Assembly (NCBI GenBank): GCA_017859745.1
Contig: JAFMML010000031.1
Coordinates: forward strand, 1-38,820
Source of the DNA: Planctomycetota bacterium
GTDB lineage: Bacteria; Planctomycetota; Phycisphaerae; Phycisphaerales; SM1A02
Direction of reading: 5' to 3'
DNA: 38,820 nt
Position numbers and translations under genes: made by a program. Below are positions 807 to 18,206 of the stretch, piece after piece (the stretch's first letter is position 1; each line of letters opens with the position of its first letter). A model generated the notes under the pieces. It saw only the letters and a program-made list of their open reading frames with translations, was not told the origin of the DNA and made no database searches.

Positions 807-3800
807 TCAGAGGCACGGTCCCCAGTCGAGCAGCATCAACCCGATGTCCGCGCCGTCGACGACGCCGTCGCCATCGAGGTCGGAGGTCGCGCTGTTCGAT
901 CCCCAGTCGAGCAGCATCAGGCCGATGTCCGCACCGGTGACCTCGCCGTCTCCGTCGAGGTCGGCCGGACACGCCGACACCGGCCAGGCGATCTCGACCG
1001 TACCGGTCTGCTGCTGCGTCTCGCCGCCGGGATAGCCGGCGAACGAGGTGCTTGCGGTCACCGACAACATCTCCTCCGCGCCCGTGGGCACGATCGTGAA
1101 GCGGGCGACCAGCACCCGGCCTTCGGCATCGGTGAATCCCTGAAGATTCGCCGGGTTCGAGTTGTACCACCCCGCTCCGGCCGGAGGCACCGTCGCGGAC
1201 GCGTCGGGGAATCCCGGGTCGAAGGTGGTGGTGTTGGACGACGGGACCGCGAGATCGCCACCCACGGTGACGAACGAGTCGATCCCGATGGTGCTCGGAT
1301 TCGAGAGCATCGGCGACCACGTCCCACCTGCGAAGTCGTTCTGGACGAAGGGGCTGCCAAGCGTGTTCTCGATCGTCGCCGCGTAGACGTTGACGACCTC
1401 GACGCTTGCCGAGTCGAAGGTCGCATAGAGATCGATGCGTGCGTAGGCGACCCCATCCACGGAGGTTTCCACCGCCTCTCCAGCGAAGCCCAGGAACGTC
1501 ACCAGATCCGAGCAGGTCTCGTCGATCTCGCCGTTGCAGTCGTTGTCGAGGCCGTCGCCGCAGATCTCGACGGCGCCGGGCCGGATCGCGGAGTTCCCGT
1601 CGTCGCAATCGAGTCCGTTGTCGACATGGCCCGTGGGCTGCACACATGCCGACGTCGTGGCCGCCGCCGCGTCGCCGTAGCCGTCGCCGTCGGCATCAGG
1701 CCACCAATCGACCGCAGTGGCGTCGTCCACGCCGCAGCCGCACGTTCCAGGCGAAGTCTTGTTCGGATCCGCCGGGCAACCATCGTTGCAGTCGGGTGTC
1801 CCGTCCGAATCGCTGTCTGCATCCGAGACGCCGCAACCGCACGCACCGGGCGAAGTCTTGTTCGGATCCGCCGGGCAACCATCGTTGCAGTCGGGTGTCC
1901 CGTCCGAATCGCTGTCTGCATCCGAGACGCCGCAACCGCACGCACCGGGCGAAGTCTTGTTCGGATCCGCCGGGCAACCATCGTTGCAGTCGGGCGTCCC
2001 GTCGCCGTCGCTGTCTGCATCCGAGACGCCGCAGCCGCACGTCCCGGGCGAGGTCTTGTTCGGATCCGCCGGACACCCATCGTTGCAGTCCGGCGTCCCG
2101 TCGCCGTCGCTGTCGGTGTCTGCAACGCCGCAACCGCACGTTCCGGGCGAGGCCTTGCTCGGGTCGCTCGGACAACCGTCGTCGCAGTCGCCGATCCCGT
2201 CTCCGTCGCTGTCCGCCGCACAGGGATTGGCGTCCTGCGAGATCGAAAGGACCACGGCATCGGCAGCACTCGAGTCGACGGTGATCGTCGCACTGCGAGC
2301 CGAGGCGGTGCCGTTGAGCGCGACATCGAAGGTGACGCCGGCGTCGCCCGATCCGCCGCTCGATGACAACGTGATCCACGACGCGTCACTGGTCGCGGTC
2401 CAGGCGCAACCGGCACCGGTGGCGACTGCGAGGTCGATGCCCGTGCCGCCGTCCGAAGAAAAGCTCGTCGTGGCCGCCGTCGCCCCGAGGTTCGCACATG
2501 GATCGTCGGGCTCGATGCCGAAGACGACGATGCGGACGTTCGCGTAGGAGGTGGCGGGCGCGGAAGTCCAGCCGTTCATGATCTTGAAGGCGAAGGCCTG
2601 TCCAGGCACGATCCCGATCGTCGCCGGCATCGCATCGAGGTAGATGCCGTCTCCCGCCGAGCCGCTGCCGTCGAAGGCCCAGCTGCCGATGCTCGGGTAG
2701 CCGAACGAGGTGTCGTAGCCGCCGACCTCGATCCCGGCGGTTCCGTTGTGGAACGCCGCCACCATGTCGGAAGCCCAGGTTCCACCGCTGCCGTCGTAGT
2801 CCATGGCCAGCGCGAAACCGGTCATGGTCCCGGTGTAGCCCTCGATCATCACGGTCGCCGACTGGCCGCCCGACAGCGTGAAGGAGCCCATGTCGAACAC
2901 GACTCCGTTGCAGTCGAGGGTGCCGTCGCCGTTCCAGTCCGCATCGATCGATCCGCAACCGCAGCTGCCAGAGGCGACCGAGGTGTAGGGATCGTTCGGG
3001 CAGGCATCGTTGCAGTCGACCACGCCGTCGCCATCGCTGTCGCCGTCGGAGACACCGCATCCGCAGGTGCCGGGTTCGGTCTTGTCGGGGTCGTTGGGAC
3101 AGCCGTCCTCGCAGTCGACGACCCCGTCGCCGTCACTGTCGTCGGCGGGGGCGTTGCAGCCGCAAGCGCCGGGCTCGGTGCGATCGGGATCGTTCGGACA
3201 GCCGTCGCATACGTCACCGACTCCGTCGCCGTCCGCGTCGGACTGATCGCCGTTGGCCACGTCGGGGCAGTTGTCGTCGCCGTCGAGGATGCCGTCGCCG
3301 TCGCTGTCGGCGGTGGGGTCGCCGCAGGCCTCGTCGGCAAGACAGGCGGCCCCGGTCGCGAACGCCTCGATGTTCAGCTGCACCCGCGGATGAAACTGCA
3401 GCACGATGTTCGAAAGGCCTCCCGAGCACGTGTGGCAGTAGCTCATGATCGTGCCGCCGTAGGCGCTGCTGCAGTCGCCGAGGCCGCAGCCGTCGATCAC
3501 GGGGTTGTACTGGTCGATGTCGTGGGTGTGGAAGGTCCCGAGGTTGTGACCGAGTTCGTGCGCGAACACGATGATGTCCCAGTTCTGGCTGCTGTGGTCC
3601 TGCAGCGGTGTGGGAAACGAGCCATTGATGTTCGCCGACACCGCGTACGCGTAGCTCGAACAGGCGGCACTCACCCACGCGACGCCACCGCCAAGGCCTC
3701 GTCCCGAGACGAAGTGGGCGAGGTCGCGCTGGACGCTTCCCATGTTGGCCTGCCAGTAGTCGCGAAACTGCGTGAGTTGCGCACTGGTGCCCGAGGCGTT

Positions 3801-4643
3801 CCAGGGATCGGTGCTGTTCCAGAGGCGGGTGTAGGCGATCGTGAACTGGACGTCGGTGTCGCGACGGTAGATCTCGTTCGTTCCGGCGACGAGGGTCTCG
3901 AGATAGCCCTGGGCGGCGGCATCGCTGCCGAAGAGGTTCCGAAACTCCTGGTCGGTCTCGAGGGCGAGTTCGACGGTCTGGCAGACCGTCCCGGCGAGCC
4001 CGCCCTGCGGAGGCTGCGGAGCCATGCCGAGGAACGGCTGCTCGATGCCGTCGGCGCCGCACTCGAACGGAACCCACTTGATGCGTTCGCCCGCCGGGCC
4101 CTCGAGGTCGTAGACGACCGGGATCCGATCGCCCTTGGGATCGCCCGAGGAGATCACGTACTTGCGTCCGTCGTGCTGAACCCACCCGAAGAATCCCGCC
4201 GGAGAGTCGGCGAGGAAGACTCGAGACGCCTCGTCACCCGCGACATGCCCTCGCCAGAATCTCGCCAGACGTGGGATCCGCCGCTCGCGACCATGCTCGT
4301 CGACCACCACCGACTTCACGCCGCGGGCGCCGACCGAGAAGGGCTCGACCACGAGATCGACGTCGGTGGCGAGATCGACCGGCAGATCCTCGATCCGCCA
4401 GCGTCCCGGCCGCGCGATCTCGTCGAGGTCGATCGGGTCGATGTCGAGGGCCATCGCGTCGGCCTGCATCGCCTGAAGATGCGGAAGACGGTGGAACGGC
4501 TTCACGGTTCCCAGAACCGGGCGGTCGTCCACGGCGCCGGGCACTTGCCCGACACTCGTCGAGGTCAGCGCCATCGATCCGACGACGGCGGCGGAACCGA
4601 GACGCGCGAGCAGGCGAGAGGGGCAGATCGAGTTGGTGGTCAT
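807..4643 (-). CDS. Secreted metzincin metalloprotease with TSP3, BACON-like, MopE-like and dockerin-like modules
   Basis: This is a predicted secreted zinc endopeptidase of 1278 residues. A signal peptide lies at about 1-33. A prodomain-like region follows, then the metzincin zinc site HELGHNLGTFH at residues 362-372, with a Met-turn (IMSYCH) at Met400. Downstream, in order, are thrombospondin type-3-like calcium repeats (about 445-580), a BACON-like domain (about 716-800), a second TSP3-like array (about 809-968), a MopE-like metal-binding motif (about 973-1044), a beta-rich domain, and paired dockerin-like repeats (about 1223-1278). The ATG at 4643 was chosen because it begins the signal peptide. 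A GTG at 4742 in the same frame has a purine-rich upstream stretch and would add 33 residues. It is a paralogue of the next gene upstream. Protease function is confident from the motif. Substrate and the role of the C-terminal modules are unknown. Confidence 0.88.
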   Translation of the reverse strand: MTTNSICPSRLLARLGSAAVVGSMALTSTSVGQVPGAVDDRPVLGTVKPFHRLPHLQAMQADAMALDIDPIDLDEIARPGRWRIEDLPVDLATDVDLVVEPFSVGARGVKSVVVDEHGRERRIPRLARFWRGHVAGDEASRVFLADSPAGFFGWVQHDGRKYVISSGDPKGDRIPVVYDLEGPAGERIKWVPFECGADGIEQPFLGMAPQPPQGGLAGTVCQTVELALETDQEFRNLFGSDAAAQGYLETLVAGTNEIYRRDTDVQFTIAYTRLWNSTDPWNASGTSAQLTQFRDYWQANMGSVQRDLAHFVSGRGLGGGVAWVSAACSSYAYAVSANINGSFPTPLQDHSSQNWDIIVFAHELGHNLGTFHTHDIDQYNPVIDGCGLGDCSSAYGGTIMSYCHTCSGGLSNIVLQFHPRVQLNIEAFATGAACLADEACGDPTADSDGDGILDGDDNCPDVANGDQSDADGDGVGDVCDGCPNDPDRTEPGACGCNAPADDSDGDGVVDCEDGCPNDPDKTEPGTCGCGVSDGDSDGDGVVDCNDACPNDPYTSVASGSCGCGSIDADWNGDGTLDCNGVVFDMGSFTLSGGQSATVMIEGYTGTMTGFALAMDYDGSGGTWASDMVAAFHNGTAGIEVGGYDTSFGYPSIGSWAFDGSGSAGDGIYLDAMPATIGIVPGQAFAFKIMNGWTSAPATSYANVRIVVFGIEPDDPCANLGATAATTSFSSDGGTGIDLAVATGAGCAWTATSDASWITLSSSGGSGDAGVTFDVALNGTASARSATITVDSSAADAVVLSISQDANPCAADSDGDGIGDCDDGCPSDPSKASPGTCGCGVADTDSDGDGTPDCNDGCPADPNKTSPGTCGCGVSDADSDGDGTPDCNDGCPADPNKTSPGACGCGVSDADSDSDGTPDCNDGCPADPNKTSPGACGCGVSDADSDSDGTPDCNDGCPADPNKTSPGTCGCGVDDATAVDWWPDADGDGYGDAAAATTSACVQPTGHVDNGLDCDDGNSAIRPGAVEICGDGLDNDCNGEIDETCSDLVTFLGFAGEAVETSVDGVAYARIDLYATFDSASVEVVNVYAATIENTLGSPFVQNDFAGGTWSPMLSNPSTIGIDSFVTVGGDLAVPSSNTTTFDPGFPDASATVPPAGAGWYNSNPANLQGFTDAEGRVLVARFTIVPTGAEEMLSVTASTSFAGYPGGETQQQTGTVEIAWPVSACPADLDGDGEVTGADIGLMLLDWGSNSATSDLDGDGVVDGADIGLMLLDWGPCL
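1751..2245 (-). repeat. Five 99-bp tandem repeats encoding TSP3-like calcium motifs
   Basis: Anchors reading gcgaagtctt or close variants occur at 1751, 1850, 1949, 2048 and 2147, an exact 99-bp (33-codon) period. The copies at 1751-1849 and 1850-1948 read as identical over the whole unit. The other three differ at several positions. Each unit encodes an Asp-rich DSDGDGTPDCNDGC-type motif plus a short Cys-Gly-Cys linker. The two identical copies share the change DSDSDG, which points to a recent duplication. Confidence 0.93.
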
Positions 4644-4833
4644 GGTCGGGGCCTGGCGAGGGTGCTGGGCGGTCTCTTGCGAAGCGGCCGTCGCCGCGGG
4701 ATCGGGAGTTCCCGAACCGGGTCGAAGACCTGCAAGCGTCACAAGGGAACCTAAACCCCTCGTTTCCGACCGGAAGGTGGGTATTCACCCCCATCGAAAC
4801 CGTGGGTTCACGCGGGCCGGACCATCGGCTGGC

Positions 4834-7125
4834 TCAGGGGCACGCCCCCCACTGGTCGAGGACCAGTGCAAGATCGGCGGCGTCCACGAGACCGCTTCCA
4901 TCGAGGTCCGCCGAGGTCTGGCCCGTCCCCCAGTAGATGAGGAAGACTCCGAGATCCTCCCCGTCGACGACGCCGTTGCCGGAGAGGTCGGCCGAACAAC
5001 CACCGCACGGCTCCACACCGTCGTCGGGCTCGGCGAGTCGCAGCGACCACGCGGCGAACTGCCCGGGTTCGCCCGCCGACTCGTCGGCGAGATCGAGTCG
5101 CCACGTGCCGGTCGAGGAGTGTCCGCCGAACACCGCGTCGAGGGAGATCGCCGTGCCCGCGCCGGCGCCCGTTGCGGCATACCGGCCTCCCGGAACCACG
5201 CCGTTGTTGTTGGCGGCGTCGGCCGCGGCCCAGAAGTCGCCGGCGTCGGCATCCGCGAAGACGTAGTCGCCGTCGAGGTTCGAGTTGTCGCCGCCGCCTC
5301 CACCGGTTCGACCGACCCTGACGAACAGCGGCGAGGTTCGTCCGCTCTCGACATGCGTGATGCTTGCCGTCAGATCGCCGAGACGCTCGTGCACAAGACC
5401 CTCGATCCGGACCTCGATCGCCGCCACCTCGAAGTCCGCTGCGACCACGATCGCGCTCGACGCACCGACCGCATCGCCGTCGGGCAGCGGGAACGATTCA
5501 CCGGGCACCAGCGCCGCGCCACCTTCGCAGGCGTCCGCAGTTCCATCGCCGTTGCAGTCGATCGGCGCAATGCCGCAACCGCATGGCGCCGACACCGTCA
5601 GCATCGGATCGTTCGGACAGACGTCGCAGGCATCCGGAATCCCGTCGCCATCGGCATCGAGGTCGCACTCGTCGGGCACGCCGTTGCCGTCGCAGTCGAG
5701 GCTCGAACCGGAGGCGAGATCGAACTCGTCGGACACGCCGTTGCCGTTGCAGTCCTCCACACAGGGACCATCGGAAGCGCATGCGGCACCTCCGACGGTT
5801 GCGGCGATGCGGGCCGACACCTCCGGATGCAGGGAGAGCGAGATGTTCGCGATGCCGCCGCTGCACTGGTGGCAGTAGCTCATCAGCGTGCCGCCGTAGG
5901 CCATCGAACAGGGACCGACCGACTCGCCGATCCAGCAGTCGTCGAGGGGCGGGTCGTAGTGCAGGGTGTCGTGCGTATGCCGACTGCCGAGCGTGTGCCC
6001 GAGTTCGTGGGCGAACACGTAAGGGTCCCAGTTCTGACTGTCGTGATCGGCCATCGGAGTGGGGAAGAAGCCCGTCAGGTTGGCCGACACCCCGTAGGAG
6101 AACGAGGTGCAGAGTCCGCCGATCCAGGCCATGCCGCCACCGAGGTCGCGGCCCGACAGCAGGTGCGCCGAGTCGCGGAACACTCCGCCCATCGAGTTCT
6201 GCCAGTGGTCGCGGAACTGGGTCAACTGGGTCTGCGTCCCGGAGGCGGTCCAGGGGTCGAGCGAACTCCAGAGTCTTGAATAGACCAGTTGCAGTCGGAC
6301 TCCGGCGTCGCGGCCGTGGATCGCATCGGCAGCCGCGACCAGCAGCTCGAGATAGGACTGCGCGGCTTCGAGCGAGCCGCCGAAGAGCTGCAGGAACTCC
6401 TCGTCGGTGTCGATCGCCAACTGGACGACCTGGCAGATCGTTCCCGCAAGCCCACCCTGTTCCGGCGGCACGGTGCCCGCCAAGGCGTCGGGGTGCACCA
6501 GATCCTCGGCCCCGCACTGGAACGGAAGCCACGGGATCTCGGCGACCGTGGGATCGCCAAGTTCGTGGACGACCGGAATCTTCGCGCCCCGGGGGTCGCC
6601 GCTGCTGACGATGGACATGCGGCCATCGATCGTGATCCAGCCGAAGGTGCCCGCGGGCGAATCCGAAAGCAGCACGTCGGAGTCGGGATGACCGACGACC
6701 GAGCCTCGCCAGATCCTGCCCATGCGGCGGATCGGACGCTCGCGGCCATCCGGACCCACCACCACGGATCGAGTGTCGGGTCCCACCGGCGACCAGCGTT
6801 CCAGCTCGAGGTCCACGGATCGGGCGAGATCCAACGGAAGATCCCGGACGCGAAGAGGCACGTCCCCGGCGGCGCGATGCCAGCGGTCCCGTTCACGTTC
6901 GTCGATCGAGAGGGCCACGACGCCCTTCTCGAACGCCTCTCGGTGCATCCGCCGGCCGAACGGCCGGACATCCTCGGTGATCGCCTGCCCGGCACCTGCA
7001 TCACGATCGCCGACCGCACCTTCGGCGATCCGCGAACTCGACACCGACATCGCGCAGACGGCGGCGGTCAGGGCGAACGCGGAGAATCGAATGCGGATTC
7101 CGATCGGCGAGAGTGTCTGAAGCAT
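4834..7125 (-). CDS. Secreted metzincin metalloprotease with P-domain-like and dockerin-like C-terminus
   Basis: This predicted secreted zinc protease has 763 residues and is paralogous to the gene at 807-4643 over the prodomain and catalytic domain. A signal peptide occupies about residues 1-38. The zinc site HELGHTLGSRH spans 373-383 and is followed by the Met-turn LMSYCH. Next come a short TSP3-like calcium stretch (about 456-533), a domain resembling the proprotein-convertase P domain (about 537-698, with a GTWRLDLAD core), and paired dockerin-like repeats (about 708-763). A GTG at 7128 directly precedes the ATG at 7125. The AAGGAG at 7134-7139 is 8 nt from the ATG and only 5 nt from the GTG, so the ATG is preferred. 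Only 190 bp separate its stop from the ATG of the next paralogue, so co-transcription is possible. Confidence 0.88.
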   Translation of the reverse strand: MLQTLSPIGIRIRFSAFALTAAVCAMSVSSSRIAEGAVGDRDAGAGQAITEDVRPFGRRMHREAFEKGVVALSIDERERDRWHRAAGDVPLRVRDLPLDLARSVDLELERWSPVGPDTRSVVVGPDGRERPIRRMGRIWRGSVVGHPDSDVLLSDSPAGTFGWITIDGRMSIVSSGDPRGAKIPVVHELGDPTVAEIPWLPFQCGAEDLVHPDALAGTVPPEQGGLAGTICQVVQLAIDTDEEFLQLFGGSLEAAQSYLELLVAAADAIHGRDAGVRLQLVYSRLWSSLDPWTASGTQTQLTQFRDHWQNSMGGVFRDSAHLLSGRDLGGGMAWIGGLCTSFSYGVSANLTGFFPTPMADHDSQNWDPYVFAHELGHTLGSRHTHDTLHYDPPLDDCWIGESVGPCSMAYGGTLMSYCHQCSGGIANISLSLHPEVSARIAATVGGAACASDGPCVEDCNGNGVSDEFDLASGSSLDCDGNGVPDECDLDADGDGIPDACDVCPNDPMLTVSAPCGCGIAPIDCNGDGTADACEGGAALVPGESFPLPDGDAVGASSAIVVAADFEVAAIEVRIEGLVHERLGDLTASITHVESGRTSPLFVRVGRTGGGGGDNSNLDGDYVFADADAGDFWAAADAANNNGVVPGGRYAATGAGAGTAISLDAVFGGHSSTGTWRLDLADESAGEPGQFAAWSLRLAEPDDGVEPCGGCSADLSGNGVVDGEDLGVFLIYWGTGQTSADLDGSGLVDAADLALVLDQWGACP

Positions 7126-7133
7126 CACAGGCG

Positions 7134-8742: not shown

Positions 8743-8750
8743 ATCCTCAG

Positions 8751-9632
8751 ATGCCTTCGACGTTCGCCTCCACCCCTCGCCGGAACACGGCTCTGTCCGC
8801 TCTTGCGGCATGCCTCCTGATCGCTCCCGCGACGGTCCACGCCCAGGACTTCTCGACGCTTCCTCCCGAACCCGCGGAGATGGAGCAGCAGCTCTCCGCG
8901 GCGGCGATCACCATGCCCGCCGCGATCGCGGCCGCCGAGAAGTTCGCCGGCGGCGCGGCCGTCGGGGCCACGGCCCGCCCTGCCGCCAACGGGGTCGAGT
9001 ACGAGGTGATGGTCTCCGCCGGCGGCATCGTGCGTCGTGTGACCGTCGACGGTTCGACCGGCGCCTGCAGCGGCGCGATGATGACGCTGCCGCAGGCCAT
9101 TTCCCTCGCCCTTGGCAAGGTGCCGGGCGTCGTCGAGTCGATCGGACTCGATCCCACCGCCGAACCCCCGACCATCACGGTGGTCGTCTACTTCCAGCGA
9201 CAGGTGCACACCATGACCATGAACGCCTCCAACGGCGATGTGATCGACGACTCCGTCCGCGGCCGGTTCCCCGGGACCGGCGCCGACGGCGAACTCATGA
9301 AGAGCGATTCGGGCCTGCAGTGGATCGAGATCGAGGAGGGCACGGGCGCGATGCCCGCGGGACCGCAGGACCGCGTCACCGTCCACTACTCGGGCTACCT
9401 GCTCGACGGCACCAAGTTCGACTCGAGCGTCGACCGTGGCCAGCCCACGACGTTCGGCCTCGGCCAGGTCATCAAGGGATGGACCGAGGGCGTGGGTTCG
9501 ATGAAGGTCGGCGGCAAGCGCAAGCTGATCATCCCCGCCGACATCGCCTACGGCCCCCGCGGACGTCCTCCGGTGATCCCGCCCAACGCCACGCTCGTCT
9601 TCGACGTCGAGCTGATCGAGATCGCCGACTGA
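8751..9632 (+). CDS. Exported FKBP-type peptidyl-prolyl isomerase with PepSY-like N-terminal domains
   Basis: This predicted periplasmic prolyl cis-trans isomerase has 293 residues. A signal peptide covers about 1-31, ending VHAQ. Two PepSY-like units follow (about 55-105 and 111-168), each an alpha-beta stretch ending in a D-G-x-T-G or N-A-S-N-G-D type turn. The C-terminal FKBP domain (about 180-293) carries the expected core elements [26 protein letters not shown] and [13 protein letters not shown]. The start is fixed by AGGAGG at 8737-8742. A strong intrinsic terminator follows at 9669-9702. FKBP identity is confident. The PepSY assignment is by pattern only. This domain pair is unusual to me. 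PepSY units often act as inhibitory or binding modules, so a regulatory or targeting role is possible. Confidence 0.88.
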
Positions 9633-9768: not shown

Positions 9769-10242
9769 TCAGTCTCGACTCGCCTCGACCATGCCCATCG
9801 GATCCCGCTCGATCGCGTGCACCTTGTCCAGTCGACGCTGGTGCCGCGGTTCACCGGTGTAGGCCGCCGCGAGAAACGCCTCGCACATCTCGATCGCCGG
9901 CATCTGCCCCACGATCCGCCCTCCGAGGACCAGCACGTTCATGTCGTCGTGCTCGACGCCCTGATGCGCCGAGTAGTGGTCCTGGACGTTGCCGGCGCGA
10001 ATGCCGGGGATCTTGTTCGCGGCGACGCTCGCCCCGATGCCGCTGCCGCACAGGAGGATGCCGCGTTCCGCCCGACCGGAAAGCAGCTCCGCGGCCAGCT
10101 TCACCGCGTAGTCGGGATAGTCCACGGACTCGGGCGAGTGGGTGCCGACGTCGACGACCTCGTGCCCGAGACCGCGAACGTGGTCGAGAAGCACCTGCTT
10201 GAGCTCGAACCCGGCGTGGTCGGATGCCATTGCGACGTTCAT
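9769..10242 (-). CDS. rpiB: Ribose-5-phosphate isomerase B
   Basis: It interconverts ribose 5-phosphate and ribulose 5-phosphate in the pentose phosphate pathway. The 157-residue length matches the RpiB/LacAB family. Visible motifs are ASDHAGFELK at the N-terminus, THSPESVDYPDYA, the catalytic-cysteine loop LLCGSGIGASVAANK, and the DHYSAHQGVEHDDMNVL segment. The ATG at 10242 has GGAG at 10251-10254, 8 nt upstream. The gene follows transketolase on the same strand with a 58-bp gap, so the two probably form an operon. Assignment to the sugar-phosphate family is secure. An allose- or galactose-phosphate variant cannot be excluded from sequence alone but is less likely beside tkt. Confidence 0.94.
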   Translation of the reverse strand: MNVAMASDHAGFELKQVLLDHVRGLGHEVVDVGTHSPESVDYPDYAVKLAAELLSGRAERGILLCGSGIGASVAANKIPGIRAGNVQDHYSAHQGVEHDDMNVLVLGGRIVGQMPAIEMCEAFLAAAYTGEPRHQRRLDKVHAIERDPMGMVEASRD

Positions 10243-10300
10243 GGACAGATCTCCGGCAGGGCGCTCGGCGAGTCGGCAGCGCAGCCTCGCGATCGGACCA

Positions 10301-12457
10301 TCAGGCAAGTCCTCGCGCGGTCTCGGCGATGCGATCGGGCTCGAAGCCGAACTTGTGCATGAGCTCCTCGATGGGCGCGCTCGCGCCGAAGGTGTGCATG
10401 CCGATGCAGGCTCCGCCGTCGCCCACATAGCGATGCCACCCCAGCGTGGAAGCCTCTTCGACGCTCACGCGCCGCGAGACCGAAGCCGGCAGCACCGATT
10501 CGCGATACGCCTGGTCCTGCTCGTCGAAGAGATCGCTGCAGGGCATGCTGACCACGCGGGTCGGCATGCCGGAGGCCTCCAAGGCCTCGCGGGCGGCCAG
10601 GCAGAGATGCACCTCGCTGCCGGTCGCGATCAGGATCGCCTCGGGCGTGCCGCCGCCGGCTTCGGCAAGCACGTAGCCGCCTCGGGTCGCACCGTCGGCG
10701 GAGCAGTGGGTCGTGCGGTCGAGGGTGGGCAGGTTCTGCCGCGAACCGATCATCACCGAGGGCCGCCCCGAACCGAGGGCGACCCGCCAGCATGCGGCGG
10801 CCTCGTTCGCGTCGCAGGGTCGGAAGACCATCAGACCCGGCACCGCACGCAGCGAGGCGAGCTGCTCGACCGGCTGGTGGGTCGGTCCGTCCTCGCCAAG
10901 GCCGATCGAGTCGTGGGTGAAGACGTGGACGACCGGCAGTTGCATCAGGGCGCTCAGACGAATCGAGCCGCGGGCGTAGTCGGAGAAGATCAGGAACCCA
11001 GCACCGAAGGGCCGGAGTCCCGAGAGGGCCATCCCGTTCACGACCGCGGCCATCGCATGCTCGCGAATGCCGAAGTGCACGTTCCGACCCGCCGGCGAGC
11101 AGACGGTCGATGCGGGATCGACGTTCTCCGGGACGGCTGCGGCCCAACGAGGTCCCTGCTGGTCGCCGGCCCCCTCGAAGTCGAGACGGGTCTTGGTCGA
11201 GGGGGTGAGATCCGCGGCGCCGCCGACGATCCACGGAATGACCTGCGCGGCGGCGTCGAGGCACTTTCCGTTCGACACCCGCGTGGCCATGCCCTTCGCA
11301 TCGGTGGCGAATCCGGGCAACGACGCTTCCCAGCCCGCCGGCAAGGTGCCGGCGAAGAGGTGGTCGAGCTGGGCGGCGAGTTCGGGGTGCTCGCGGCGAT
11401 AGGACTCGAAGGTCTTCTCCCACGCCGCCCGCTTCTCCGCGCCGCGTGCCCCCATCACCTCGGCGAAGCGAGCGGGCACCTGGGATGGCACCAGGAACCT
11501 CGCGTCTTCGGGCCAGCCGTAGAACCGCTTGGTGCGCCGAATCTCCTCCTCTCCGAGCGGTTCGCCGTGCGCTGCGCTGGTGTCCTGTCGATCCGGCGCA
11601 CCCCATCCGATGTGGCTGTCCACGATGATCAACGTGGGACGTCGGGTTTCCGCCATCGCGCCGCGATACGCCTCGCCGAGCCGATCGAGATCGTTCGCGT
11701 CGGCGACTCGCAACACGTTCCATCGGTACGCGGCGAATCGTGCCGCGACGTCTTCAGTGAAGGCGAGATCGGTGTGGCCCTCGATCGAGATGTGGTTGTT
11801 GTCGTGGATCCAGCAGAGGTTCGAGAGCTCGAGGTGCCCCGCCAGCGAGGCGGCCTCCGATGCGATGCCTTCCATGAGGCATCCGTCGCCGCAGATCGCC
11901 CACGTCCGCCACGAGAAGAGTTCGTGACCCGGCCGGTTGTAGCGAGCTCCGAGCCAGCGGGCGGCGAGGGCCATGCCGACCGAGGTCGCCACCCCCTGAC
12001 CGAGCGGGCCGGTCGTGGTCTCGACGCCGGTGGTCCATCCGAACTCGGGGTGGCCGGGGCAACGGCTGTCGAGTTGGCGGAATCGCTCGATGTCCTCGAG
12101 GCGGACCGCGGGTTCGTCGGTCGGTCGGCCGGACTCGTCGACCCGCTTCACCCCCGCCAGATGAAGCAGCGAGTAGAGCAGCATCGACGCGTGGCCGTTG
12201 GACAGGACGAAGCGGTCGCGTCCGGGCCAGTGCGGGGCGGCAGGGTCGTAGTCGAGCACCTGCTGCCAGAGCGCATACGCGACCGGGGCCAGCGCCATCG
12301 GGGTGCCCGGGTGCCCACTGGCGGCCGCCTGCACGGCATCCATCGACAGGGTTCGGATCGTGTTGATCGCCAGCGCATCGATCGCTGAGACGTCGCCCGG
12401 CGTCCCGGCGTTGGGAACCCCGGAACCGATGGGAAGTCTTGCGGCCGCGTCGGGCAT
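10301..12457 (-). CDS. tkt: Transketolase
   Basis: This thiamine-diphosphate enzyme transfers two-carbon ketol units in the pentose phosphate pathway. Its 718 residues fit the bacterial transketolase family. The N-terminal SGHPG lies at residues 47-51. The thiamine-diphosphate motif runs from [10 protein letters not shown] to DNNHIS at about 185-215. The pyrimidine-domain segment [14 protein letters not shown] and the substrate-binding [15 protein letters not shown] are both present. The ATG at 12457 is preceded by GGAG (12465-12468) at 7-nt spacing. It lies immediately upstream of rpiB on the same strand and is divergent from the lipoprotein gene at 12696. The 238-bp gap between them must hold both promoters. 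Confidence 0.96.
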
Positions 12458-12695
12458 GTCATGTCTCCAGTCCGTCCGATCCTACCGCGACGTCCGGGAA
12501 CGATGCCCCGAAGACGGCTCGGCGGCGAACTCGGCAGTCAGGAGCGCAGGCACGTCCGGGAAGGCTCGAGACCGGTCTCGACGTGACCGTGCCGGACTCC
12601 CGCGACCGATAGCCTTCCTCCGACCCCGCGACCCCGCCGTTGCGGTCGTCCATCCCGCCCCCTTCGCCCGAGTCGATCGGGCCCGGAGCAGCATC

Positions 12696-13430
12696 ATGAG
12701 CCGCCGATTCCCGCTTCCCATCACCGGCCTCGTCGTCCTCCTCGCGACGGCGGCCTGCACCACGACGCCGCGGACCAGCGAGGTCGCCCCCGGGGCGGTC
12801 TCGGGACTGCGAGCCCAGGACCAGAGCTACGAGATCCCCGGAAAGCCCGAAGCGACCGACGAACAGGCGACGCCCGAAGGCGTCGGGTTCAACCAGCAAG
12901 GCGGCGAACTGAATCCCTACGCCAGCGAGAGCGAGGCGATCAATCGCGTCAACTACCACTTCCACTTCCACGGTCCGCCGCCCGGCGGAGCTCCGGCCGC
13001 CGGAGGCGATTCGACCGAGGTGAAGGGACCCCCCGGACCCGGTGGTCCGCCGGCCGGCTACGCGCCGGCCGTCTGGTCGACCCCGATGGCCATTCAGAAC
13101 TCCCGCGGCGGCGGCTGGGGCGGCGGATACCACTTCCACTTCTATCACGGTGGATACGGTCTCCCCGCGAATCAGGGCAACGCCACGGGCCGCGGTGCCG
13201 GATGGCAGGGCGGCTACGACCAGTCGCGAGGGGCCTACGACCTGCCGGCAAGTCAGGGCAACGCCACCGGCGCCGGCGCGGGCGAGGCGGGCGGGTACGA
13301 CGAGAGCGGCACGAACTACGACATGCCCCGGAGCCAGGGCAATGCCGCGGGACGCGGTGGAGGGTACGGAGGCGGCATCAACTACCACTTCCACTTCTAT
13401 CACCCCCCCGCCGGCAACCCCGGGCCCTGA
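12696..13430 (+). CDS. Predicted lipoprotein with His-aromatic and glycine-rich repeats
   Basis: The protein has 244 residues and I recognise no family. A signal peptide ends in the lipobox ATAAC, with the predicted lipidated residue at Cys21. Three near-identical His-aromatic motifs occur: YHFHFH at 87-92 and YHFHFYH at 145-151 and 230-236. Between the last two are three 27-residue repeats of the form Y(D/G)xPxxQGNAxGxGxG, starting at 154, 181 and 208. A collagen-like GPPGPGGPP segment lies at 111-119. The ATG at 12696 has GGAG at 12685-12688 with 7-nt spacing. A very strong terminator follows, so this looks like a single-gene unit. The clustered histidines suggest metal binding or self-assembly, but that is inference. 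Confidence 0.75.
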   Translation: MSRRFPLPITGLVVLLATAACTTTPRTSEVAPGAVSGLRAQDQSYEIPGKPEATDEQATPEGVGFNQQGGELNPYASESEAINRVNYHFHFHGPPPGGAPAAGGDSTEVKGPPGPGGPPAGYAPAVWSTPMAIQNSRGGGWGGGYHFHFYHGGYGLPANQGNATGRGAGWQGGYDQSRGAYDLPASQGNATGAGAGEAGGYDESGTNYDMPRSQGNAAGRGGGYGGGINYHFHFYHPPAGNPGP

Positions 13431-13459
13431 AGCACCGCGGCGTTTCCTACGACCCGTCT

Positions 13460-13497
13460 CGCGGCGCGGCTCCCTTCGAGCCGCGCCGCGTGTTCGT
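13460..13497 (+). terminator. Intrinsic terminator of the His-aromatic lipoprotein gene
   Basis: A perfect 13-bp GC-rich stem (CGCGGCGCGGCTC at 13460-13472 with GAGCCGCGCCGCG at 13478-13490) has a 5-nt CCTTC loop. It is followed by the moderately T-rich TGTTCGTTCG. It separates the lipoprotein gene from purE. Confidence 0.75.
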
Positions 13498-13580
13498 TCG
13501 GGGCACGGCAGGTCGGCAATTCGCCGTGGAGGCGGTAGTCTCTCCGCTCGACGGGACCACTTCCTGAAGACGGCACACCA

Positions 13581-14123
13581 ATGACCTCTTCCGAACCGAA
13601 AGTCGGCGTGATCATGGGCTCTCGGTCCGACTGGGAGACGATGCGCGGGGCCGTGGAGACCCTGGAGCGGCTCGGCGTCGCCAACGAATGCCGGGTGGTC
13701 TCGGCCCACCGGACTCCGGATCTTCTGTTCGAGTACGCCGAGACCGCCGAGCGACGAGGCCTCGTGGCGATCATTGCCGGCGCGGGTGGGGCGGCCCACC
13801 TGCCGGGGATGACCGCGGCGAAGACGACGGTGCCGGTCCTCGGCGTCCCGGTGAAGAGTCGAGCCCTGCAAGGCGTGGACTCGCTGCTCTCGATCGTGCA
13901 GATGCCTGCAGGCGTGCCGGTCGCGACCTTCGCGATCGGCGAGGCGGGCGCCGTCAATGCGGCGCTCTTCGCCGCGGCGATCGTCGCCGGAAGCGACTCG
14001 AAGGTCCGCGACGCCCTCGCACGACATCGCGCCGATCAGACCGCCGCCGTGCTCGCGAAGCCCGACCCGTCTTCGCCCGAACCGTCTTCGCTCGAACCGT
14101 CTTCGTTCGAACAAGGCTCGTGA
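13581..14123 (+). CDS. purE: N5-carboxyaminoimidazole ribonucleotide mutase (class I PurE)
   Basis: It converts N5-CAIR to CAIR in de novo purine synthesis. The protein has 180 residues. The class I signature [10 protein letters not shown] is at residues 12-21, followed by VSAHRTPD and the [11 protein letters not shown] loop. The neighbouring purK supplies N5-CAIR, which supports the class I assignment. The last residues (about 163-178) are three PSSxE pentapeptides outside the conserved fold, encoded by a 15-bp tandem repeat. The stop TGA at 14121-14123 overlaps a GTG at 14120 in the purK frame. The ATG at 13581 has no clear Shine-Dalgarno. Confidence 0.95.
14067..14111 (+). repeat. Three 15-bp tandem repeats in the 3' end of purE
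   Basis: CCGTCTTCG recurs at 14067, 14082 and 14097, an exact 15-bp period ending in CGAA. It encodes [10 protein letters not shown] and PSSFE at the extreme C-terminus of PurE. The period is a multiple of 3, so copy changes would not shift the frame. Confidence 0.9.
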
Positions 14124-17207: not shown

Positions 17208-18206
17208 TCAGGATGCTTCGGCCCGCGGGTGGGCGCGGTCGTACGCGTCGCGCATGCGGGCGTTGGAGAGGTGGGTGTACACCTGGGTGCTCGACAGCGA
17301 CTGGTGCCCGAGCAGTTCCTGAACGGAACGGAGATCGGCGCCGTTGTCGAGCAGGTGCGTCGCGAAGCTGTGCCGAATGGTGTGCGGGCTGATGTTGGGA
17401 TCGAGACCCACCTCGGCGAGGTACTTGGAGACCTTTCGTCGCACCGAGCGGCTGCTGAGCCGACTTCCGTGCTTGTTCACGAACAGCGGGGAGTCCGGCG
17501 CCGCCACCGCTCCGGCGCGGGCGAGGTCCGCGTCGAGCATCGCGAGGTAGTGTCGCAAGGCGGCGAGGGCGTGCGATCCGAGCGGAACCAGACGCTCGCG
17601 GCGTCCCTTGCCCCGAATGACGATCGCCTCGCCGGCCTCGTTGAGATCGCCACGGTCGATGCCGACGACCTCGCTGACACGGATGCCCGTCGAGTAGAGC
17701 GTCTCGAGAATCGCCCGATCGCGGGCACCAAGCAGATCGTTGGGATCCGGAGCGGACAGCAGACGCTCGATCTCGTCGACGCTGATCGCCTTGGGCAGTC
17801 GCTTGGCCTGCTTCGGGGTGCGGATCAGCACCATCGGATTGGAACGAACCAGACCCCGTCGCTCCGCCCACTTGTGGAACGACCGCAGCGTGGCGATCTT
17901 CCGAGCCATGGTGGCGGCGGAGTAGTTCTGCTCGCTCATCCGCACGAGAAAGGCGCGAATGGTCTCGGGATCGGATGCCATCAGCCGACCGGTGGCGGTG
18001 TTCATGAACTCGTCCGCCGACTCGGGTCCGGCGTCGAGGGCGGCCTGCTCGGTCGCCGGGTTCTCGTCGAGACCGAACTCGCCGGTCATGAACTCGATGA
18101 ACTGGCGGAGATCGAGGCCGTAGCAGCGGCTCGTGTAGGGACTGAAGTGCCGTTCGTCGGTCAGGTAGGTCAGGAACTGCTCGACGAGGGGGAGATGCTG
18201 GCTCAT
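17208..18206 (-). CDS. xerC: Tyrosine site-specific recombinase, XerC/XerD type
   Basis: Xer recombinases resolve chromosome dimers at dif sites. The 332-residue protein has the full catalytic set: Arg176 (TGIRVSEV), Lys200 (RGKGRRERLV), His275 and Arg278 (HTIRHSFATHLL), His301 (ELLGHQSLS) and Tyr310 (TQVYTHL). The ending YDRAHPRA resembles XerC more than XerD, but the subtype is not certain. An insertion of about 30 residues (roughly 43-75) sits in the N-terminal core-binding domain, making the protein longer than the usual 295-310. Its ATG overlaps the stop of a possible 32-codon ORF (ATGA). The methyltransferase follows downstream on the same strand. Nothing nearby suggests a phage or integrative element. 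Confidence 0.92.
   Translation of the reverse strand: MSQHLPLVEQFLTYLTDERHFSPYTSRCYGLDLRQFIEFMTGEFGLDENPATEQAALDAGPESADEFMNTATGRLMASDPETIRAFLVRMSEQNYSAATMARKIATLRSFHKWAERRGLVRSNPMVLIRTPKQAKRLPKAISVDEIERLLSAPDPNDLLGARDRAILETLYSTGIRVSEVVGIDRGDLNEAGEAIVIRGKGRRERLVPLGSHALAALRHYLAMLDADLARAGAVAAPDSPLFVNKHGSRLSSRSVRRKVSKYLAEVGLDPNISPHTIRHSFATHLLDNGADLRSVQELLGHQSLSSTQVYTHLSNARMRDAYDRAHPRAEAS

Follow-up and report, generated by a model that had tools for sequence, protein, structure and literature searches.

A Lineage-Restricted Planctomycete Protein Family with Alternating Histidine/Aromatic Strands, Encoded Head-to-Head with Transketolase

The Locus and Its Gene

The window, a stretch of 38,820 nucleotides from a planctomycete of the Phycisphaerales (contig JAFMML010000031.1), carries a small gene arranged head-to-head with transketolase (tkt), whose product contains three clusters of alternating His and aromatic residues. 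The features of the locus are as follows.

8748-9632, strand not given: PepSY-FKBP fusion (Pfam PF03413 and PF00254)
9769-10245, minus strand: rpiB, conserved in the block (Pfam; synteny)
10301-12457, minus strand: tkt, conserved head-to-head neighbor (Pfam; synteny)
12458-12695, no strand: intergenic region between tkt and the gene, presumed divergent promoter region, 238 nt for a tkt start at 12457
12685-12688, plus strand: GGAG, Shine-Dalgarno-like, read directly
12696-13430, plus strand: coding sequence of the His/aromatic, probably exported protein, 244 aa plus stop (homologues, dN/dS)
12696-12758, plus strand: predicted signal peptide and lipobox, residues 1-21, ending LLATAAC (by rule and eye)
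12954-12974, plus strand: cluster 1, YHFHFHG, residues 87-93, at the place of the family-wide (V/I)HYHYH strand
13128-13148, plus strand: cluster 2, YHFHFYH, residues 145-151, aligned to SWHLY of genus g42 and WNWHYY of homologue G047
13155-13235, plus strand: 27-aa repeat, copy 1
13236-13316, plus strand: 27-aa repeat, copy 2
13317-13376, plus strand: 27-aa repeat, partial copy 3 of 20 aa
13383-13403, plus strand: cluster 3, YHFHFYH, residues 230-236, C-terminal
13460-13490, plus strand: 13-bp hairpin, terminator-like, downstream of the gene

It can be observed that GGAG ends 7 nt ahead of the ATG, so that the gene has a Shine-Dalgarno-like sequence of its own, as a preliminary description of this DNA had stated. 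The 13-bp terminator of the same description stands in part: the hairpin is present and is the sole terminator-like site within 12300-13700, where shuffles lead one to expect 0.4, while its tail, TGTTCGTTCG, contains no clean T run. Long overlapping open reading frames are held by both strands, as would be expected if the frame were a spurious product of GC-rich DNA. That explanation is scarcely credible, since homologues occupy the same location in 11 genera and purifying selection is evident. Two congeners carry the gene, with 69% and 61% identity over the matched parts. The dN/dS of the window gene against these two is 0.23 and 0.34, the remaining pair within the genus gives 0.32 and one pair in another genus 0.18, and in each of the four pairs changes are most frequent at the third codon position. 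A shadow ORF was dropped on these grounds, and 12696-13430 is a real gene under codon-level selection.

Clusters, Repeats and Export Signal

The clusters, in which YHFHF starts at residues 87, 145 and 230, hold all nine histidines of the window protein. When the mature sequence was shuffled 200,000 times, no shuffle contained three YHFHF and 4 contained at least one. In the 3.24-Mb genome the DNA pattern TAYCAYTWYCAYTWY for YH(F/Y)H(F/Y) gave 3 matches, all in the window gene, with 0 for the reversed control. The form YHFHF(Y/H)H, formerly ascribed to all three clusters, fits clusters 2 and 3, while cluster 1 ends in HG. A linker separates the signal peptide from the clusters, and between clusters 2 and 3 the Gly/Asn-rich 27-aa unit noticed earlier is indeed present, as two full copies and a 20-aa partial copy with a period of 81 nt. 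The number of repeats varies, with one congener (G002) possessing one full unit more than the window protein. The overall composition is rich in Gly, Pro and Asn. A collagen-like protein, for which many Gly-X-Y triplets are required, was dropped; the collagen-like segment of the preliminary description was overstated, being a lone short GPPGPGGPP stretch.

Regarding localization, the lipobox reads ATAAC|TTT by rule and inspection, and its Cys is kept in both congeners (LLGC and AVGC), in agreement with the lipoprotein proposed previously. Judging from these signals, the protein is probably exported and lipid-anchored in its genus. Across 40 members of the family described below, a lipobox was recognized in 17 and none was seen in the other 23 by a simple rule plus inspection, with an implausible rule hit in G170b discarded and, in G015, a later LTAC read in place of the rule's earlier Cys. 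Because 23 of the 40 are without it, the lipid anchor belongs to some genera, the window's among them, and is not family-wide.

Genomic Neighborhood

Synteny was compared in 20 stretches from 49 matched genomes, picked so that 11 genera were represented. The gene lies head-to-head with tkt, with rpiB next, in 18 of these; in G050 and G027, the two exceptions, it lies head-to-head with rpiB, and tkt was unmatched in the stretch. Past rpiB, an FKBP gene in either orientation is found in 19 of the 20, and the twentieth (L071) stops just after rpiB. The far side of the gene is not conserved, with purE and purK matched in the window's genus only. The window gene displays both marks of the tkt-linked family, namely a head-to-head tkt or rpiB and a conserved H-x-H core. 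With the start codons chosen, 238 nt separate the starts of tkt and the gene in the window, and the distance ranges from 48 nt (in G047) to 258 nt over the 17 cases measured. Since 48 nt is hardly room for two promoters, a shared divergent promoter is suggested; a search of the window intergenic region for a sigma-70-like site found none. Among the eight window neighbors scanned with Pfam no metal-homeostasis gene was found, and sugar-phosphate and purine enzymes are present.

Some further observations concern gene surroundings. In three of the four g42 stretches (L068, L069 and L070, not L085), GCATACCCT ends 7 nt ahead of the ATG; the Shine-Dalgarno sequence is unclear in these three, as if the transcripts were leaderless. 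Elsewhere in the window, a DNA methylase gene (PF01555; 16414-17190, minus strand) adjoins an ORF at 17208-18206 that by eye resembles a tyrosine recombinase, and the two congeners gave matches to each of them. The adjacent large ORFs at 807-4742 and 4834-7128 (minus strand) contain, by eye, HELGHxLGxxHTHD zinc-protease-like motifs and Asp-rich repeats.

Extent of the Homologue Family

A six-row profile gave matches in 44 of the 181 genomes of the taxonomic family, in 10 of its 45 genera. The order and class search added genus g7 and a position-guided search genus g14, for a total of 12 genera in one taxonomic family. Thirty-six of 350 genomes matched in the order and 12 of 347 in the class, with a profile that misses divergent members, and every match lay inside family f1. 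Because divergent members overlooked by the profile were found by position, the lack of the gene outside f1 is unproven.

The position-guided search examined the region upstream of tkt. Of 101 relatives, 31 gave a tkt match; ten of these loci were already in hand, G022 was left out and 20 were taken. Two of the 20 (G042 and G036) possess a different tkt, of 50% and 48% identity. From the other 18, four gave a family member. Three of these (G008, G015 and G052), carrying HHVVHHVHY, had been missed by the sequence searches, which therefore understate the size of the family, and the fourth (G053, with IHYHVHYH) already had a profile match with E 5.1e-4, its contig being cut before the C-terminus of the protein. 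Twelve of the 18 were without a member by the search pattern, including G027, where the member sits next to rpiB on a separate contig, and two more without a member (L089 and L096) were ended by the contig at 1.3 kb or less. The His motif was itself part of the search pattern, which favors finds that carry it. Scans of public genome contigs gave 566 pattern stretches with one relative (L038), and scans of viral contigs gave 41 with none; they reach close relatives only, because they look for short peptides identical to those of the window protein. Gene copies may also be multiple within one genome: two adjacent copies are present in two genomes of genus g39 (L084 and L125, from G170 and G172), and G163 and G171 have two matches each.

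Motif Conservation Across Members

In the 29-row alignment, a shared order is seen, consisting of PxGVGFNxxGG, (V/I)HYHY, GYA and then, in most members, a C-terminal (W/F)xP(Y/W)AxxGTG. Mean column identity is 26%, reflecting fast evolution outside the short motifs. At the core, His alternates with aromatic residues in a strand that reads (V/I)HYHYH or YHFHF. All 29 aligned members keep the central His of this strand and 26 keep the HxH partner, the other three having Arg there, so that the histidines, whose conservation had been proposed as a check, are conserved. At the Val and Tyr positions of the motif, different codons are used for unchanged residues, indicating that the constraint acts on the protein. 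The second core His, the central one, is encoded by CAC in 29 of 29 members, at GC3 as low as 0.43, and the adjacent Tyr codons vary.

When 11 members read from genome stretches are added to the 29 rows, His-hydrophobic-His occurs in 37 of 40 members, where shuffling their sequences would give 2.4, and strict five-residue alternation in 31, where it would give 0.11; the 40 are not independent cases, because three were found with the His pattern, the motif forms part of the profiles and the members share ancestry. The expression for the C-terminal motif missed 10 of the 40, including all three members of the window genus and one cut by its contig, and that for GVGFN likewise missed 10. The absence of each end motif, by expression, from a quarter of members counts against a fixed architecture.

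Alternating strands are multiplied in more than one form. Three alignable strands, with strands 2 and 3 matched across genera partly by eye, are found in g42 (HYHYY, SWHLY, NFYI), G047 (HYHLW, WNWHYY, YHIHNY) and G044 (HYHVM, NWHYH, HWHFY). Near-perfect YHFHF at three positions is seen in the window's genus only, in all three of its genomes, the one exception being YNFHF in cluster 2 of G002. Longer single runs occur elsewhere, such as IHYHYHVHNHYH in G132, THYHYHYHYY in G040 and HYHYHVHNHH in members from g33 and g38. At the DNA level, an HYHYH pattern gave 37 matches in 29 of the 181 genomes, versus 68 for the reversed control by count of the listing, and is thus not enriched genome-wide. 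By coordinate comparison and ORF inspection, 27 of the 37 were placed in the family gene. ORF inspection covered nine of the other ten, all but G133 C499; eight of these lie outside open frames of more than 60 codons, and the ninth in a low-complexity frame.

Comparison with Known Families and Structures

The check for a known structural family, also proposed earlier, returned no significant match in Pfam, NCBIfam or PDB. In Pfam-A, none of 29 members matched at E 0.1 and the window protein had no match at E 10. The best PDB value was E 0.87 with phmmer; a profile search reached 0.092, to 9jwb_Z, a match that is at chance level and was dropped. NCBIfam gave weak matches only. HpnL (NF033704) matched 4 of 29 members, the window protein being unmatched, over 20-27 residues around the His stretch. 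In a scan of six members it scored 18.4 and 16.2 bits in two and did not match four; the best score is far under the cut-off of 35, and HpnL was dropped. Lactococcin 972 (TIGR01653) matched one of 29 members weakly (E 0.017). HpnL, a nickel-binding protein of Helicobacter, is His-rich and small like the family members; it is cytoplasmic and is not known to have aromatic alternation. By description alone, the family may also be likened to the suckerins and beak proteins of animals, which are His-rich structural proteins with beta-forming His segments between Gly-rich spacers. AlphaFold2, run on the window protein and L038 as the only two input sequences, did not yield a usable model (pLDDT 29.1, pTM 0.17), and the low pLDDT fits disorder and, equally, a two-sequence alignment. 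Five strands appear in the model, two of them on clusters 2 and 3 and none on cluster 1.

Literature searches, judged by titles and the starts of abstracts, brought up no paper on the family, nor on planctomycete His-rich or amyloid proteins resembling it. The preliminary description, which could not place the protein, is right in that no known family matches significantly, yet the protein does belong to a family, one without a name and spread over 12 genera. The family is real, undescribed and lineage-restricted, and its chemistry would be of a known kind.

Discussion

The closest likeness of the core is to designed peptides. As in HYHYHYHY, IHIHIQI and IHIHIYI, runs of 5-9 residues in the family strictly alternate His with an aromatic or hydrophobic residue, and homologue G040 contains exactly HYHYHYHY, a designed catalytic amyloid peptide. 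According to excerpts of the published reports, HYHYHYHY peptides form cross-beta fibrils (PMC8508955, PMC9656882), which gel at pH 8, flow at pH 4 and possess esterase and oxidase activity (PMC8508955), the esterase activity being metal-independent (PMC9656882). IHIHIQI/IHIHIYI fibrils are reported to perform Zn-dependent ester hydrolysis (PMC8431744), and fibrils of heptapeptides with alternating Tyr to hold Cu, Ni, Co and Zn without any His (PMC10510724). The designed peptides are short and synthetic, whereas in the family the strand makes up little of a natural, probably exported protein known from its sequence, and the likeness is one of pattern only. Moreover, since HY-peptide esterase activity, as so reported, needs no metal, the likeness alone is no argument for metal.

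We tentatively favor, with a probability of roughly 0.4, an exported and largely disordered sticker-and-spacer protein, lipid-anchored in the window genus, whose strands would bind divalent metal and self-associate. Each short strand would present His on one face and Phe/Tyr on the other; aromatic faces may pack strand to strand, the His face may bind Zn, Cu or Ni, and the 27-residue Gly/Asn repeats would act as flexible spacers between strands, presumably at the cell surface. This reading is suggested because all nine His lie in three alternating clusters, because HxH is kept across members, because genera reach many alternating His by different routes, and because designed peptides with the same pattern, in the excerpts cited above, form cross-beta fibrils, some metal-bound. 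It is weakened by the unusable AlphaFold2 model, by the absence of metal-homeostasis genes from the eight neighbors and by the HpnL score of 18.4 against 35 bits. RYHYY in three g42 members, with a single His in the core, and YNFHF in the congener count against it as well.

The conservation of HxH, among the most conserved elements of the family, together with the long His runs of g33 and g38, would also suit a periplasmic metal buffer or scavenger, soluble or membrane-tethered, which holds one metal ion per HxH strand as a monomer with no assembly. We regard this as rather unlikely, given that the aromatic/aliphatic alternation, superfluous for simple chelation, is kept along with His, and that none of the eight scanned neighbors is metal-related. 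Alternatively, metal may be irrelevant, and the product may be a structural or adhesive low-complexity surface protein that self-associates through its aromatics, with His serving as a pH switch or as hydrogen-bond donors. The Gly/Pro/Asn-rich composition, the variable repeat number, the fast evolution outside short motifs, and the pH-dependent gelling and metal-independent esterase activity described in the excerpts on HY peptides (PMC8508955, PMC9656882) agree with such a protein. The protein is small, however, and His is seldom lost from the core (HxH in 37 of 40), so that this explanation appears unlikely, a little more so than the buffer.

Quite improbable is a small domain, folded from a few beta strands and missed through shallow alignments, in which His and aromatics are core or ligand-binding residues and the function is unrelated. 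Many members retain the order GVGFN, strand, GYA, (strand), WxPYANxGTG, each end motif is found in 30 of 40, and a profile match to 9jwb_Z exists, albeit at chance level (E 0.092). Opposed to this are the highly variable linkers, the loss of the C-terminal motif in the window genus and the pLDDT of 29, which comes from two sequences only.

Beyond the sticker-and-spacer protein favored here, the analogy with designed fibrils admits a bolder proposal that must be considered very improbable, a natural catalytic amyloid. The family would then be an envelope family forming a metallated cross-beta surface with hydrolase/oxidase activity, whose lineages raise the number of strands or His independently. 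Were the favored sticker-and-spacer reading confirmed, an unnamed, lineage-restricted family would be using in cells the alternating His/aromatic strand known from man-made metal-binding and catalytic fibrils, would offer a natural system for testing designed-fibril chemistry, and would represent a conserved gene kept next to a gene of central carbon metabolism.
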